Positions 12,088 to 18,566 of a stretch of 64,000 nucleotides of DNA are shown one piece after another; position 1 is the stretch's first letter, and every line of letters begins with the position of its first letter. The position numbers were made by a program, and so were the translations under genes. The notes under the pieces were generated by a model. It was not told the DNA's origin. It saw only the letters and a program-made list of their open reading frames with translations, and made no database searches. The stretch comes from Alkalinema sp. FACHB-956 (GTDB taxonomy: Bacteria > Cyanobacteriota > Cyanobacteriia > Leptolyngbyales > Leptolyngbyaceae), in the NCBI RefSeq assembly GCF_014697025.1, contig NZ_JACJRC010000007.1, positions 62,001 through 126,000 on the forward strand. The letters are read 5' to 3'.

Positions 12088-12768
12088 TCAGATATTTCCT
12101 TCTGTTGGATCGTTCCCAAGCTGTTCAATGTTCGCCAGTAGTCCTGGAACTTGTCGTTGCAAATTTGTAATGTATCCAGTCAAAGTCTCCAAAACATTGC
12201 ATTCTTGAGCCTGTTCCCCTGACCCGAAACAAGCCTGTATTGCCTTATCGTACTGTCGCATCGGCAGTACCCGCGTCTTGACAACTTCAAATCCTAGTTG
12301 CTGAATCAATAACCATACGACTTGCTCCAAACAAATTACTCGCCCTTCTAATCGTTGATAAATTTCCTCTGACAATTTTGGCAATGCTGCCAAGCAGACT
12401 TTATCGCCAGTCAATAACAAAAAATCTGGCTGTGATCGTGTTGCCAAAATTAATTGCTGCTCGCCTTCATGAATCACATTCCGAAACTGATTCAAATACT
12501 CCAACTCACTCAAAGAGTCCTCATCCATTATGATTGAAATGGGCCGACACGCATTCACTACAGCAATTGCCATATCCCACACTACATCGGAATACTGTTG
12601 CCGCCGCTTTTTCTGACTAGAAAACCAATAGCGAGCTGTGGGTAAAATTTGCAAATTCGATCTCTCAATATGTAGCACATCAATCGCCTCGTAAAATAGA
12701 CTCATTGCTACTAGTTTATGAATAATATCATTATCAAGAAAGCAAACACGATCCACAAACTTACTCAA
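12088..12768 (-). CDS. PIN-like domain protein paired with ImmA/IrrE peptidase
   Basis: This 226-aa protein begins with CFLDNDIIHKL (D12, D14), has an acidic HEGEQQ segment (E101, E103), and then FLLLTGDKVCLAAL with D122. The order D...E...TGD is that of PIN-like metal-dependent ribonucleases. The start is a TTG at 12768 that overlaps the end of the ImmA gene by 8 bp, suggesting translational coupling; no ATG lies nearby in frame. The gene is in the AT-rich, HIP1-poor segment. It could be the toxin or effector of a two-gene module whose partner is the metallopeptidase. PIN assignment is by motif only. Confidence 0.6.
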   Translation of the reverse strand: MSKFVDRVCFLDNDIIHKLVAMSLFYEAIDVLHIERSNLQILPTARYWFSSQKKRRQQYSDVVWDMAIAVVNACRPISIIMDEDSLSELEYLNQFRNVIHEGEQQLILATRSQPDFLLLTGDKVCLAALPKLSEEIYQRLEGRVICLEQVVWLLIQQLGFEVVKTRVLPMRQYDKAIQACFGSGEQAQECNVLETLTGYITNLQRQVPGLLANIEQLGNDPTEGNI

Positions 12769-13810
12769 ACCATTGTCGATCCAAATCTAACATTGTAACT
12801 AAATAATCGATTGTTTCGTCATTCAATTGACTCCAATCTAAATGCTGACATAAAATTTGGTTAATTAAATGAGGAGCATGGACAGCCGGTTCTAAAGTTT
12901 TCAATGCTTTGATCCCTATCCGCCAAATCATCTCTTTGTCTGCTTTTGTATAAGCCCGTCCTGCTCGGTTCCAAGCAATGTTTAAGGCAACAACACCTGG
13001 TGCGACATGGTCTTTCTTGGCTAATCTTAAGGATTCTTGTGCTAGTTGTTCACCTGTAATGTATCGTCGCCAAATATCATAACTCATCGCTGATCGACCA
13101 ATTAGCAATTCTTGTGCTACCTGATTAGCTTCATCTTCATCAGCATCATCCGTAGCGACTGCTACCCGCTCATCAACTAATGGTTCATCTTGCCTCACAT
13201 GACCGCACAACAAGTGTCCTAGTTCATGGGCTGCAATAAATAATAAGCGTGCTGGAGATTTATCTTTCAAACTTACAATAATCACGGGACGATCAACAAA
13301 ATATGCCACCATTCCCTGGAAGCGGTGTACGTCAGGTGGAAAAGCTGAAAAATGCAATACTGGAATTCCGATTGACCAACAGAACTGGACTAATCCCAAT
13401 AAATCAACTGCATCTTGCGATTGCATAATTTGTTGCCGAATGCGATCTATTGACCAATTTGCCAGTCCTAAATAAGGCTGCTTGCACCCGTAGGCTACTA
13501 CTTCTGCAACCCTGGAAGCTAATGCACGTGGAATGGTCAGTCGATTCGTATCTGTTCCATTTTTCAATTTAAACTTTAGTTGAAATGCAGATGCAAAACT
13601 TACCTCTGAATTTTCCGTTAGTAGAGATCTAAGATTGACGTTCAACCGATTTGCTAAGTAGGCTGCGCCTTCTAACAAAACATCGGGATCTTGGTCAGCC
13701 TCATCCGTCCACCAATCCGGTAACCCTACTTGACGGATATATTTTCTGGAAAAACCTACATTCACTAGACGATCGTAGAGGTCAGCCATCTTTATCTGAA
13801 CTTGCGTCAT
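12761..13810 (-). CDS. ImmA/IrrE-family metallopeptidase with N-terminal HTH-like region
   Basis: This zinc-peptidase-like protein of 349 aa has AAHELGHLLCGH (HExxH, H195/E196/H199) followed by a DEDEANQVAQELL helix that offers the third ligand (E227). The first 90 residues (VGFSRKYIRQVGLPDWW ... GAAYLANRLNVNLRSLL) resemble an Xre-like helix-turn-helix plus linker. The start at 13810 is chosen because GATAGGAGGTATGCC directly precedes the ATG; the longer frame to 13915 has no such site. ImmA/IrrE proteases cleave repressors or antitoxins in mobile elements and stress responses. It is co-directional with and overlaps the PIN-like gene, and diverges from the methyltransferase operon. Confidence 0.8.
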   Translation of the reverse strand: MTQVQIKMADLYDRLVNVGFSRKYIRQVGLPDWWTDEADQDPDVLLEGAAYLANRLNVNLRSLLTENSEVSFASAFQLKFKLKNGTDTNRLTIPRALASRVAEVVAYGCKQPYLGLANWSIDRIRQQIMQSQDAVDLLGLVQFCWSIGIPVLHFSAFPPDVHRFQGMVAYFVDRPVIIVSLKDKSPARLLFIAAHELGHLLCGHVRQDEPLVDERVAVATDDADEDEANQVAQELLIGRSAMSYDIWRRYITGEQLAQESLRLAKKDHVAPGVVALNIAWNRAGRAYTKADKEMIWRIGIKALKTLEPAVHAPHLINQILCQHLDWSQLNDETIDYLVTMLDLDRQWFE

Positions 13811-14181
13811 GGCATACCTCCTATCAACCTGCAATTTCCGAGCAAACCGTTGATTGTCTCTCTCAATTATGGCATACGGATCCGAAAACATAATAATGAG
13901 GAGCAAGATTTTCAAAACTAGCCTGAATTATGGCTACTAAGTGGATTCATAATACAAGAGAGGGAATACAGCCCTTTGCTTGACTGATCGATACAGCAAC
14001 CCACAGCAGAAAAGGTTTCAGGTGTTGCATCTGTTTCTTGTCGTTACGCAATCCGCTGTAGTAGACCTCAATATATAAGGTTGATGAATATAATTTTACA
14101 GAAGACTGTAACCCGAGTCTGTTCAAGCAGCAGCCGATTATCAGTACTGCATACAACGAACTAGTAGTGAGTTAAAATTTC
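13811..14181. other. Divergent intergenic region of the putative defence island
   Basis: These 371 bp separate the ImmA/PIN pair from the MTase-HerA-NurA operon and must hold both promoters. On the plus strand TATAAT occurs at 14089-14094, but no good -35 box stands 16-18 bp before it. The minus-strand ribosome site AGGAGGT is at the left edge. I saw no gene or clear operator. Confidence 0.45.
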
Positions 14182-15150
14182 GTGAAACCTGTATACCGAA
14201 ATAAGTCAGGGCAGTACTATCTCGGCAAATGTGAGGAAGTTTTGCTGCATAAGAAGCTACAAGATATTCAAGGAAAGGTAAACCTTATACTTACGTCACC
14301 ACCTTTCCCTTTGAATAAAAAGAAAAGGTATGGCAATATGAAAGGTGAAATTTATCTAAAGTGGTTTACGGATTTAGCACCTCTTTTTGCAAACCTGTTA
14401 GCTGATGATGGTTCTATAGTTATTGAATTAGGAAATGCCTGGGAACCTAAACGACCCGTTCAATCATTGTTGCCACTTCAGTCTTTACTAGGTTTTGTTT
14501 CACATGAGAAAGCTAATCTACGGCTTATCCAACAATTTGTATGTTACAACCCTTCTCGGCTGCCATCTCCTGCTCAGTGGGTCACAATTGAACAGATTCG
14601 GGCTGTAGATAGTTATACAAATGTTTGGTGGATGGCAAAGAGTGATTTTCCTAAGGCGGATAATTCCCGACCAGAAGTGCTACGCCCGTACAGTAAAAGT
14701 ATGCAAAGGCTGCTGAAATCAGGAAAGTTCAATGCTGGCAGAAGACCTTCACAGCATAAGATTAGTGATAGTGGTTTCTTAAACGATAGAGGTGGTTCTA
14801 TTGCTCATAATTTCATTGAGTTAGAAAGCCTTACACCGGGATGTGAGCCACGCCTACCAAACGCCTTTTCCATGTCTAACACCTCGTCCAATGACTTCTT
14901 CAGCCGGATATGTCGTGAGAAAGGTATAGAAGCACACCCAGCTAGAATGCAAGTGGGGCTGGCTAAGTTTTTTATTGAATATCTGACTAATCCTGATGAC
15001 TTAGTTCTTGATCCGTTTGGTGGGAGTAATACTACTGGCTATGCAGCAGCCCTTTGTGGCCGTCGATGGCTAACAATTGAAGAAAGAGAGGACTATGTGG
15101 AGCAATCACGGCTCAGATTTGAAGATCCTGCGCTAAGGTATAAAAAGTAG
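14182..15150 (+). CDS. Beta-class site-specific DNA methyltransferase (N4-cytosine or N6-adenine type)
   Basis: The 322-aa protein has catalytic motif IV TSPPF (residues 38-42) early and the AdoMet-binding motif I DPFGGSNTTG (from 277) late. That is the circular order of beta-class amino-methyltransferases; SPPF is typical of N4-cytosine enzymes. The start is the GTG at 14182, needed to keep the conserved YYLGKCEEVL segment; the next ATG is after motif IV. No restriction endonuclease of a usual kind lies beside it; instead a HerA ATPase follows after 17 bp and a NurA-like nuclease after that. It probably marks host DNA so that the partners spare it. Confidence 0.87.
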   Translation: MKPVYRNKSGQYYLGKCEEVLLHKKLQDIQGKVNLILTSPPFPLNKKKRYGNMKGEIYLKWFTDLAPLFANLLADDGSIVIELGNAWEPKRPVQSLLPLQSLLGFVSHEKANLRLIQQFVCYNPSRLPSPAQWVTIEQIRAVDSYTNVWWMAKSDFPKADNSRPEVLRPYSKSMQRLLKSGKFNAGRRPSQHKISDSGFLNDRGGSIAHNFIELESLTPGCEPRLPNAFSMSNTSSNDFFSRICREKGIEAHPARMQVGLAKFFIEYLTNPDDLVLDPFGGSNTTGYAAALCGRRWLTIEEREDYVEQSRLRFEDPALRYKK

Positions 15151-15167
15151 CTTCTATTTATAGAATT

Positions 15168-17180
15168 ATGGGAATTAGTTCTCGGATTATCCAACCCGAC
15201 TTTTTCAAGCGAGATACTAACGGAGAGTGGCAAACAGGTCTTTTTGTAGGTAGGCCATTTCGTCTCAGTTATAGCAAAGCAGAAATTTTAGTTGCTGATT
15301 CGTGGAAGGAGCGTGCCAAAGGAATTCCCCAAGGCTGCTTTCTCCTTGCATATTATGACAATGAACTTGATGACAAGTCAAATGCTGAAGCAATGCTGCT
15401 GAGGGTTCTTCAACCTGCCAAACTGCCAACTGATCAAGATGTGATCAGCAGTATGGTTGAGTACTACAAAGATGGACTACAGACAGGTTCAACCAGTCGC
15501 TCCCAATTAGATACATTCACACGTTATGAGTTTTCATTCAGTGGCCTTGAGTGCTCTGTTTTAGGTTCTTTCTATCTAGATCAGAATGATAAACTTCGTT
15601 TCGGAGCCGACTTAGAAAATTTCTACAGTGCTCATCATTATAAAGTTATAAAACCTTCAGCCGATATTTTAAAATTTATTGTGAATTACCGTGAAGATTC
15701 TGTGCCAGGTGGAGCAGGAGATGTTCCAGTTGGTAAAGTTCGTTACAGTTCTAGCCAGCGTTTCCAACAGCAGGAATTGGATGTTCCAGTCTACGTACAA
15801 GCTCCCGATTTTGCGGGAAAACGAACTGCATTATTTGGGATGACTCGAACAGGAAAATCTAATACTGTCAAAACTATTATTCAAGCCTGTGTGAAAATGA
15901 GCGAGCAGGCAACGCTCATCTTAGATCAAGGAGAACAAGAGCCTCCTGACGAGATTCTCGATCCTTGGAATGAGAATAAGTCGCCCAAATACCCCATTGG
16001 GCAGATTATTTTTGATATAAATGGTGAATATGCCAACCCCAACCTACAGGATCAAGGTACAGCCATATTTCAGCTTTACAGAAGTCAGACTCAGCGATAT
16101 TCAACTGTTCCTAGAGAAGCCGATGTTAAAGTCTTAAAGGTCAACTTCTACCGAGAAATTGAAGAGGGCTTTGAGTTGCTTTGTGGTCATCCAAATATTG
16201 TGGCAGACTCTACTAAATACATGATTAACTTCAAAAATATTAGCTTTTCAAAACCTGAAGATTATGACGCGAACAGATCTGCGGCAACTCGATATGACAG
16301 ACGCATAGCTGTGTATCTTTGCTGTCTGTATAGAGCAGGCTTTCCTTTGCCAATCAACCTCAAGACTATTAGGTTCTCTGCCAATGCAGAAGTCAGAAAA
16401 GCTATAGGAACAGTAGATCCAAGTAAGGGTATATCTTTTGAGGAGGCATGTAATTGGTGGGAGAAGCTGTATGAAGTCTATGATACAGATCCCTGCTTTG
16501 CAAAATATAAGCAGGATAATGGGAAAGAGTGGGCTGATGATGAACTCAAGGCTCTGTTAGTCATGTTAACTCGCAAGAGTGATGGGCGGATGGTTACAGG
16601 CTATCGTAATCTGAAGAGTGTTATTGAACAACATACAGATCGAGATCAGACACCATTTGATCAAGACATTCTACAGCAATTGAGACGTGGGAAAATAGTG
16701 ATAGTGGACTTATCACTGGGTGATGAAGGAGTTCAGAAAATGTTTACCGAAAGAATTACACGGAAAATTTTTTATGATTCCTTGGCAAGATTTGTCCAAA
16801 CTCGGCCTAATAATTTTATTCAATTCTACTTTGAAGAGGCGCACAACCTATTCCCAAAAAAAGACGACAAAGATCTATCACAAATCTACAATCGTCTTGC
16901 CAAGGAGGGTGCGAAACTTCATCTTGGGTTGGTTTACGCAACCCAAGAAGTGAGTTCGATTAGTAGTAACATTCTGAAAGCAACTCAGAACTGGTTTATA
17001 TCACACTTAAACAATGAAGATGAAACAAGAGAGTTACGTAAGTATTACGACTTTAGCGACTTTACGGAAAGCCTAATACGCTTTAGTCAGGATACTGATA
17101 AAGGATTTGTCAGAATGAAAACTTATAGCAACCCTTTTGTTATTCCCGTTCAAGTTAATCGCTTTCCTATGGAAATGTAA
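15168..17180 (+). CDS. HerA-type DNA-pumping ATPase
   Basis: This 670-aa protein has an N-terminal beta-barrel-like region (residues about 1-170) and a FtsK/HerA ATPase core. Walker A is GMTRTGKSNT (K230), FDINGEYANP is the DUF87-type motif, and Walker B is FYFEEAH (E556/E557), followed by ATQEVSSIS. Characterised HerA forms a hexamer that translocates on duplex DNA and drives the nuclease NurA, encoded here 30 bp downstream. The ATG at 15168 is the only sensible start. Codons and base composition are AT-rich compared with genes outside the island. Family identity is confident; a defensive role is inferred from the methyltransferase and nuclease neighbours. Confidence 0.88.
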   Translation: MGISSRIIQPDFFKRDTNGEWQTGLFVGRPFRLSYSKAEILVADSWKERAKGIPQGCFLLAYYDNELDDKSNAEAMLLRVLQPAKLPTDQDVISSMVEYYKDGLQTGSTSRSQLDTFTRYEFSFSGLECSVLGSFYLDQNDKLRFGADLENFYSAHHYKVIKPSADILKFIVNYREDSVPGGAGDVPVGKVRYSSSQRFQQQELDVPVYVQAPDFAGKRTALFGMTRTGKSNTVKTIIQACVKMSEQATLILDQGEQEPPDEILDPWNENKSPKYPIGQIIFDINGEYANPNLQDQGTAIFQLYRSQTQRYSTVPREADVKVLKVNFYREIEEGFELLCGHPNIVADSTKYMINFKNISFSKPEDYDANRSAATRYDRRIAVYLCCLYRAGFPLPINLKTIRFSANAEVRKAIGTVDPSKGISFEEACNWWEKLYEVYDTDPCFAKYKQDNGKEWADDELKALLVMLTRKSDGRMVTGYRNLKSVIEQHTDRDQTPFDQDILQQLRRGKIVIVDLSLGDEGVQKMFTERITRKIFYDSLARFVQTRPNNFIQFYFEEAHNLFPKKDDKDLSQIYNRLAKEGAKLHLGLVYATQEVSSISSNILKATQNWFISHLNNEDETRELRKYYDFSDFTESLIRFSQDTDKGFVRMKTYSNPFVIPVQVNRFPMEM

Positions 17181-17210
17181 GTTCATACATGTCGTTAATG
17201 GCATCACGAT

Positions 17211-18566
17211 ATGGGATATATTAGTCGTAACGATCGCCGTCCCTTTGAGGGCGCAAGCAAAGCCTCACATCAACACATCATCAACGATCCTGAAGTTCGA
17301 GCATTAATGGATCGTATTTATAAGCCTGACAAGAATTCTGGGATCACAGCAGCTGATTTAGTCGTTGATTTTGAGCCACCCGATAAGAATCCTATCCAAT
17401 TTGTGATAGCTGTAGATGGTGGCTATACCGAATCAATGATTGAGATGAATTTTCCATCTCGAACAATTCATTTTATGCAATTTGGCGCACTTTTCTTTGA
17501 GCAAAAAGAGCTCGAGTGTATTGATGCATCTCCTTTTATTGCACCAGAAGATATGGCGAAGCTGAAAAACATTGAACGATTGAAGCTGGCCTTGCCCACA
17601 AAAAATATTTGTTTCAAAGATCAACCTAGCCTGAAAGCTAGTGTTTTGAGAGCTATTTATGAGTTTTTCAAAAATAATACGATGGATGAGGGCAATAGTT
17701 TGTTAGATACCTTGGCATGGTTTGTCTTCCGCAGATATAAGCCACCTGCTCAACAAACTCAACAAGATGGCAAGTGGAACCTCGCGACAAATCCACGTAG
17801 CCCGGATCTTAATCAAGTTACTCTCAAGCTGGAGGAGATGGATTCAGAGTTCACATTTCCTTGCCCTGAAACTGGTGAGAGAATTTATTTGACTGATATT
17901 TTTCGTCTTCATGAAGTGATTGAAGAAGAAATCGGAGCAGGTGGGATTATGGGATATCTGACCAATGTAATTGAGCATTTAATTATCATTCATATTATCA
18001 GACAACTTCTGAAGCGACAGCCAGAAATGCTACGTCGTTTGTTCTTTATTAAAGATGGTTCAGCTGGGTTCTTTGGCCAAACGGCGCGGCTACACGAACC
18101 AATGCTTGATTTAATGAACTGGCTGATGAACAAGCACGGTATCTTTTTAGCTGCCTTAGAAAAAAGTGGTGCATTTGTTGAACATGCACAAGAAATCCAG
18201 CCAAAGCTCAATCCTGGCTGTGCGCTTGTGTTGACTGATGAATACATTTATAACCATATACTCCCTGGCCCTGGGGATCCATCTCGTCCCTATGCATCAA
18301 CCAGTAATTATGGGCACAAAGTAATTTTTAAGACGCGTAAAGGACAGATGCATGTTCTCTCGGTTCCTGTGAGGGGGCTTCAGAAATCACCTAGTCCTGA
18401 AGACTTACCGAATCTACAAATCATTCTTGCAAACGTTGAAGGCTTGCACTGTGATATGTACGATTCTGCTCTATTTCCAGTGGCTCTAGTGAATAAGTTA
18501 GTCAGTCTATCAGCTCATCCTAGCCAGCGTATCCTCAACAAATTTGCCAGTCAAGCGATTGGGTAA
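17211..18566 (+). CDS. NurA-like nuclease
   Basis: The 451-aa protein has the NurA pattern: FVIAVDGGYTES with D69 near the N terminus, LFFIKDGSAGFFG with D282 in the middle, followed by a LAALEKSGAFVEHA segment, and near the C terminus SALFPVALVNKLVSLS. NurA enzymes are metal-dependent DNA nucleases that work with HerA. It is longer than the usual archaeal NurA, with an insert at about residues 100-230. It is the last gene of the operon; the next 140 bp (18567-18706) hold no gene. Assignment rests on motif spacing and on the HerA neighbour. Confidence 0.78.
   Translation: MGYISRNDRRPFEGASKASHQHIINDPEVRALMDRIYKPDKNSGITAADLVVDFEPPDKNPIQFVIAVDGGYTESMIEMNFPSRTIHFMQFGALFFEQKELECIDASPFIAPEDMAKLKNIERLKLALPTKNICFKDQPSLKASVLRAIYEFFKNNTMDEGNSLLDTLAWFVFRRYKPPAQQTQQDGKWNLATNPRSPDLNQVTLKLEEMDSEFTFPCPETGERIYLTDIFRLHEVIEEEIGAGGIMGYLTNVIEHLIIIHIIRQLLKRQPEMLRRLFFIKDGSAGFFGQTARLHEPMLDLMNWLMNKHGIFLAALEKSGAFVEHAQEIQPKLNPGCALVLTDEYIYNHILPGPGDPSRPYASTSNYGHKVIFKTRKGQMHVLSVPVRGLQKSPSPEDLPNLQIILANVEGLHCDMYDSALFPVALVNKLVSLSAHPSQRILNKFASQAIG

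Follow-up and report, generated by a model that had tools for sequence, protein, structure and literature searches.

The window, the whole 64,000-nucleotide stretch of Alkalinema sp. FACHB-956 DNA analysed here, carries at positions 14182-18566 an operon of three intact genes on the plus strand. ORF analysis placed a methyltransferase (MTase) gene at 14182-15150 (322 aa, GTG start), a HerA gene at 15168-17180 (670 aa) and a NurA gene at 17211-18566 (451 aa), with intergenic gaps of 17 and 30 bp, in agreement with the three same-strand genes and the gaps described in the first-pass annotation of this DNA. Their products are a beta-class DNA methyltransferase, probably specific for N4-cytosine, which would be the modification part, a TdpA-like ATPase of the HerA/FtsK family, which would be the DNA translocase part, and a predicted nuclease of NurA fold resembling TdpB, the candidate effector part. 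Upstream, a divergent two-gene unit (12088-13915, minus strand) encodes an IrrE/M78 regulator and a 226-aa protein without a family, and a pair of this kind also lies near the HerA-NurA genes of another cyanobacterial locus (L014, 4541-6231). As to whether the window copy arrived by transposition, no convincing repeats were seen at its flanks.

The first protein matches PF01555 (E 9e-27) and the PADLOC model MTase_II (E 5e-73), and its closest solved relative is M.PvuII (1boo), to which it aligns over residues 2-317, nearly its full length (E 2e-60). Its motifs follow the beta-class order, TSPPF and then DPFGGS, and the PF01555 and M.PvuII matches agree with the beta-class assignment first made from these two motifs. 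N4C enzymes typically carry SPPF, and the window MTase, as far as its sequence tells, probably marks a short site with N4-methylcytosine. Across phyla the beta MTases are well conserved in their central region, which hints that these enzymes may share a target site. The PvuII type II restriction-modification (R-M) system thus has a closely related N4C MTase, but it differs in its restriction part: the classical endonuclease is absent here, where an ATP-driven translocase-nuclease would take its place, and no restriction endonuclease family was detected in the operon and flanking proteins scanned for a cognate enzyme.

The second protein matches PF01935/DUF87 (E 1e-17). Among 49 relatives, the Walker A motif GMTRTGKS(N) and the Walker B region FYFEEAH are invariant or nearly so and K230 is invariant, which sustains the earlier reading of GMTRTGKSNT and FYFEEAH as marks of a HerA-type ATPase. 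TdpA was the best PDB sequence match of this protein (E 2e-18; profile E 3e-27) and the top Foldseek match of its AF2 model (E 4e-24). When the model was compared by VIA, the defence HerA 8xau (Z 23.0 over 426 residues) scored above TdpA (Z 20.5 over 495 residues). Defence-linked HerA proteins of the HerA-SIR2 (Nezha) and HerA-DUF4297 systems are thus similar in structure, but their partner is SIR2 or DUF4297 and not a NurA nuclease; neither partner was matched among the scanned proteins, and to our knowledge no MTase belongs to those systems. The window HerA reached 48.6 bits against the NCBIfam anti-phage HerA models, far under their 800-bit cut-off. Besides its weak match to mad8 (39 bits), no member of the MADS mad1-8 set was among the matches listed for five proteins (for the MTase, the best 25 of 54 families).

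Protein 3 itself had no Pfam, NCBIfam or PADLOC match, and the Pfam NurA family PF09376 was matched by 20 of its 50 relatives (best 1e-7). Because PDB sequence searches with protein 3 gave nothing useful, a fold search was needed. The AlphaFold2 model, computed from 46 relatives (pLDDT 85.6), shows a NurA/RNase H-like fold in both Foldseek and VIA comparisons. In Foldseek, its best match was TdpB of the TdpAB complex (8wfd_G, E 1e-8), and TdpB was again the best match in VIA (Z 19.2 over 313 residues, rmsd 3.9), followed by the NurA proteins of Sulfolobus, Pyrococcus, Thermococcus and Deinococcus (Z 12.6 to 10.6). Residues D69, D229, E255, D282, H325 and Y417 are invariant among the relatives aligned, D69 and D282 in 46-50 of them. 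By its modelled fold and its conserved acidic residues, of which D69, E255 and D282 are putatively catalytic, protein 3 is a member of the NurA family and a predicted nuclease; the first-pass annotation had called it NurA-like and had singled out D69 and D282, and both points hold. Most relatives carry two CPxC pairs, a zinc-ribbon-like insert, at residues ~194-226 (window 17790-17890), and most of these cysteines are lost in the window protein and its close cyanobacterial kin.

TdpAB is the restriction half of a phosphorothioate-linked defence system found in thermophiles. The window operon resembles this system, TdpABC, in joining a HerA-like translocase to a NurA-fold nuclease, and TdpAB (8wet, 8wfd, 8y1k) is the top Foldseek match for both proteins, at identities of ~20% to TdpA and ~10% to TdpB. 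The difference lies in the mark: a phosphorothioate writer, TdpC, acts there whereas a base methyltransferase is encoded here, and a scan of the flanking ORFs, run with family models rather than with the TdpC sequence as query, revealed no sulphur-transfer family. The HerA-NurA pairs of archaea and Deinococcus (4d2i, 3taz, 7f6d, 9x1m), known for DNA-end processing, share both folds, the gene pairing and a translocase that feeds a NurA dimer, but their NurA proteins match protein 3 less well (Z at most 12.6, against 19.2 for TdpB). We know of no report of a methyltransferase gene accompanying these archaeal and Deinococcus pairs. Judged from the models, the closest known relative of the window pair is TdpAB and not the repair HerA-NurA. 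A role in DNA repair, in which HerA-NurA would resect double-strand breaks like its archaeal and Deinococcus counterparts, next to a methylase of regulatory or accompanying role, draws on the match of both folds to repair HerA and NurA and on the end resection known for such a pair (PMC9960219), and has against it that the closest fold of protein 3 is TdpB.

A HerA alignment scan with one genome per species yielded 461 relatives, and the best 80, which were kept, come from at least 14 phyla and include one archaeon (Methanosarcina). A NurA-like gene lies directly 3' of HerA in 79 of these 80 loci, the remaining one (L015) meeting a contig edge there, and in 67 of the 80 the immediate neighbour on the 5' side of HerA encodes a methyltransferase (on the opposite strand in L034); three further loci have MTase genes downstream of NurA. 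For the MTases of these 80 loci, motif order was used in place of the HMM label 'perm', which is unreliable through profile drift. Median gaps are -1 bp between MTase and HerA and 3 bp between HerA and NurA. As a control, at least 4 of 118 other neighbouring ORFs, in a list from which families with a single member were left out, belonged to a DNA-MTase family, so that the MTase-HerA adjacency stands far above background and is not due to chance. The three-gene order, which the first-pass annotation had proposed to look for elsewhere, therefore recurs in many phyla. The operon is patchy, with carriers among 3 of 386 cyanobacterial and 14 of 395 Bacteroidota genomes. No relatives turned up in scans of viral contigs; among phage records, two temperate Vibrio phage records of near-identical size carry them.

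The Bacteroidota count comes from an independent sample, 395 genomes of the phylum of L062 searched with a NurA profile and thus blind to HerA and MTase. Modification or R-M genes were present beside the pair in 12 of the 12 new loci. One locus (L093) combines the N4C-type motif order with Septu-like genes and looks like the MTase-HerA-NurA-PtuA-PtuB operons described below. A D12 m6A MTase occupies the slot of the N4C-type MTase in L094, L095 and L097, and an SPPY MTase lies downstream in L098-L103. In L096 (6941-15771), HerA-NurA is followed directly by type I HsdR, HsdM and HsdS genes, and in L104 (9047-10447) a single frame joins a NurA-like start to an N6_N4 MTase domain; the NurA of L104 looks like a truncated or degenerate copy or a fusion. 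Beyond this sample, the pair stands with an SPPY-type MTase on Deferribacter and Halorarius plasmids and with a D12-type MTase in a Vibrio temperate phage, and type III-like (Mod/Res-like) genes precede HerA in L011, L012 and L013. At least four unrelated modification modules are thus found beside the pair, namely beta SPPF, SPPY (with reverse motif order), D12 m6A and type I HsdRMS. On the HerA tree, the partner class needs ~10 changes. In the identity matrices, HerA and NurA co-vary tightly (rho 0.78) and MTase and HerA weakly (rho 0.29, a value reached in 0 of 500 permutations). Taken together, these correlations, the changes of partner class and the variety of classes indicate that HerA-NurA is a fixed pair and the modification module an exchangeable one. 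We take this exchange of partners as the chief new finding, and no other observation argues as strongly that modification belongs to the function of the operon. It does not fit a housekeeping repair pair, and neither do the patchy presence (3/386 cyanobacteria), the plasmid, phage and transposon sites and the defence neighbours, and we regard the repair role as very unlikely.

Two of these loci deserve a further remark. The arrangement in L096 is as if the HerA-NurA pair had been added to a type I system. In L011 (441-11856), a UvrD-like helicase, the type III-like methyltransferase and a large helicase lie upstream of HerA-NurA and an EVE-like small protein follows it, the helicases and the small protein being recognised by eye.

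Genes of defence systems and mobile elements abound in the neighbourhoods of the relatives; the first-pass annotation had proposed to score enrichment in defence islands. In ten Bacteroidota loci, the Septu genes ptuA-ptuB follow nurA, typically with an overlap or a gap of a few bp, and form MTase-HerA-NurA-PtuA-PtuB five-gene operons (L039, L048, L056, L062, L063, L067, L086, whose MTase is cut by the contig start, L087, L089 and L090); in the HerA tree these ten loci fall into two distinct branches. Other neighbours encode AbiEii (AbiE), KwaB, PIN proteins, integrases, resolvases, R-M proteins and other MTases. Relatives are carried on plasmids, in temperate phage, inside a type V-K CRISPR-associated transposon (CAST) and in chromosomal islands. 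In genome G093 (L009:4226-13970) the operon is cargo of this transposon, flanked on one side by TnsB/TnsC/TniQ-like genes and on the other by a MerR-like regulator and Cas12k (E 1e-187); no CRISPR repeat was found within the 1 kb tested. In the Vibrio temperate phage (L008, 1-12861), HerA-NurA and the D12 MTase adjoin an integrase, and genes annotated as Shedu and Gabija lie elsewhere in the phage genome. An Anoxybacillus copy (L045, 1-6499) stands beside genes that look, by eye, like those of a Tn7-like transposon (TnsB, TnsC, TniQ).

Carriage by plasmid, temperate phage and CAST would also be expected if the pair served the mobile element itself, by transferring DNA, maintaining the element or attacking rivals, with the methylase shielding the element, and a Thermus ATPase, TdtA, and a NurA-like protein reportedly act in DNA donation. 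However, no transfer genes lie close by in most loci and the operon also occurs in chromosomal islands beside stand-alone defence genes. This explanation moreover overlaps with restriction-modification, an R-M system that protects an element being still an R-M system; as a separate account we find it very improbable. The PtuAB and TA-like genes common in the neighbourhoods are a point for another alternative, a mark-dependent or suicidal effector, in which HerA-NurA would attack methylated or host DNA on infection and the MTase would be a sensor or a partner controlling the toxin. Other HerA systems (SIR2, DUF4297) do act against phage through different effectors, and some responses of the HerA-SIR2/DUF4297 type are abortive. 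Yet an MTase encoded in the operon would keep the host genome permanently marked, which would make an attack on marked DNA suicidal, and the interchange of unrelated MTase classes next to HerA-NurA is what one would expect if the MTase were a shield; we therefore hold this alternative to be very improbable.

The reading that we favour, and consider likely, is that the operon is a restriction-modification-like defence system with a TdpAB-like HerA-NurA translocase-nuclease as its restriction part and an exchangeable mark. The MTase would modify bases in the DNA of the cell, most likely to N4-methylcytosine within a short recognition site. A HerA hexamer and a NurA dimer would form a DNA-translocating nuclease of the TdpAB kind, which would take in unmarked double-stranded phage or plasmid DNA, pump it through the ring and cut both strands, and marked DNA would block loading, tracking or cutting. 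We infer in this scheme the formation of the complex, m4C as the mark, the sparing of marked DNA and the protection. By analogy, the MTase would shield the host, and HerA-NurA would spare marked and destroy unmarked DNA. In a known 6:2 complex, the HerA ring feeds DNA to the NurA dimer (PMC9960219), and double-stranded DNA, whatever its end structure, is digested on both strands by T. kodakarensis HerA-NurA, for which an antiviral role has been proposed (PMC12977600). It counts against a restriction-modification reading that no separate target-recognition domain was found in HerA and NurA, so that the mark would have to stall translocation or cutting, or the MTase would have to give specificity. 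A broader proposal, which we put forward tentatively as possible though on balance doubtful, is that HerA-NurA acts as a restriction engine of general use, leaving intact any DNA that carries the mark of its operon partner, whatever that mark is. It would sense the mark generically, by stalling of the ring, or through contact with the MTase, and not as a site-specific endonuclease does, so that a single effector type would serve N4C, m6A, type I and phosphorothioate marks and possibly type III ones.

CglI-type R-M systems, in which MTase, nuclease and ATPase are separate genes, also resemble the operon in being ATP-dependent and built from these three parts. No model for the system exists in PADLOC, Pfam or NCBIfam, which label just the MTase and a generic HerA, and no description of the three-gene system was found in the literature searched, a scope that leaves out preprints and most subscription journals. 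R-M, TdpAB and HerA defence offer precedents for the parts and the principle; what is apparently undescribed is their combination, together with how widely it occurs and the switching of methylase class. If the reading is right, this would be an R-M architecture that extends over at least 14 phyla and into the archaea, in which an ATP-driven ring nuclease would replace the site-specific endonuclease and the HerA-NurA pair would be tied to self/non-self recognition; it raises the question of how one nuclease engine could obey chemically different marks.

Two further points were counted against the restriction-modification reading, namely that HerA-NurA is also a DNA-repair pair and that five cyanobacterial loci (L014, L023, L024, L025 and L028) have HerA-NurA with no MTase in their flanks. 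A beta MTase was present elsewhere in the genome in 7 of 7 cases checked, these five together with L011 and L029, the last of which is cut at its contig start; two of the seven distant copies are interrupted by stop codons or incomplete. The background, measured in the order of one such genome, is a beta MTase in 33 of 100 genomes, including all six with a NurA gene, and because of this background an MTase elsewhere in the genome that would serve the MTase-less pairs is only suggestive. In the order of genome G820, some PvuII-like methylase copies have in-frame stops, and others (G870, G881, G912, G923 and more) are domains within open frames of ~870-900 codons, where they are apparently fused to another large domain.
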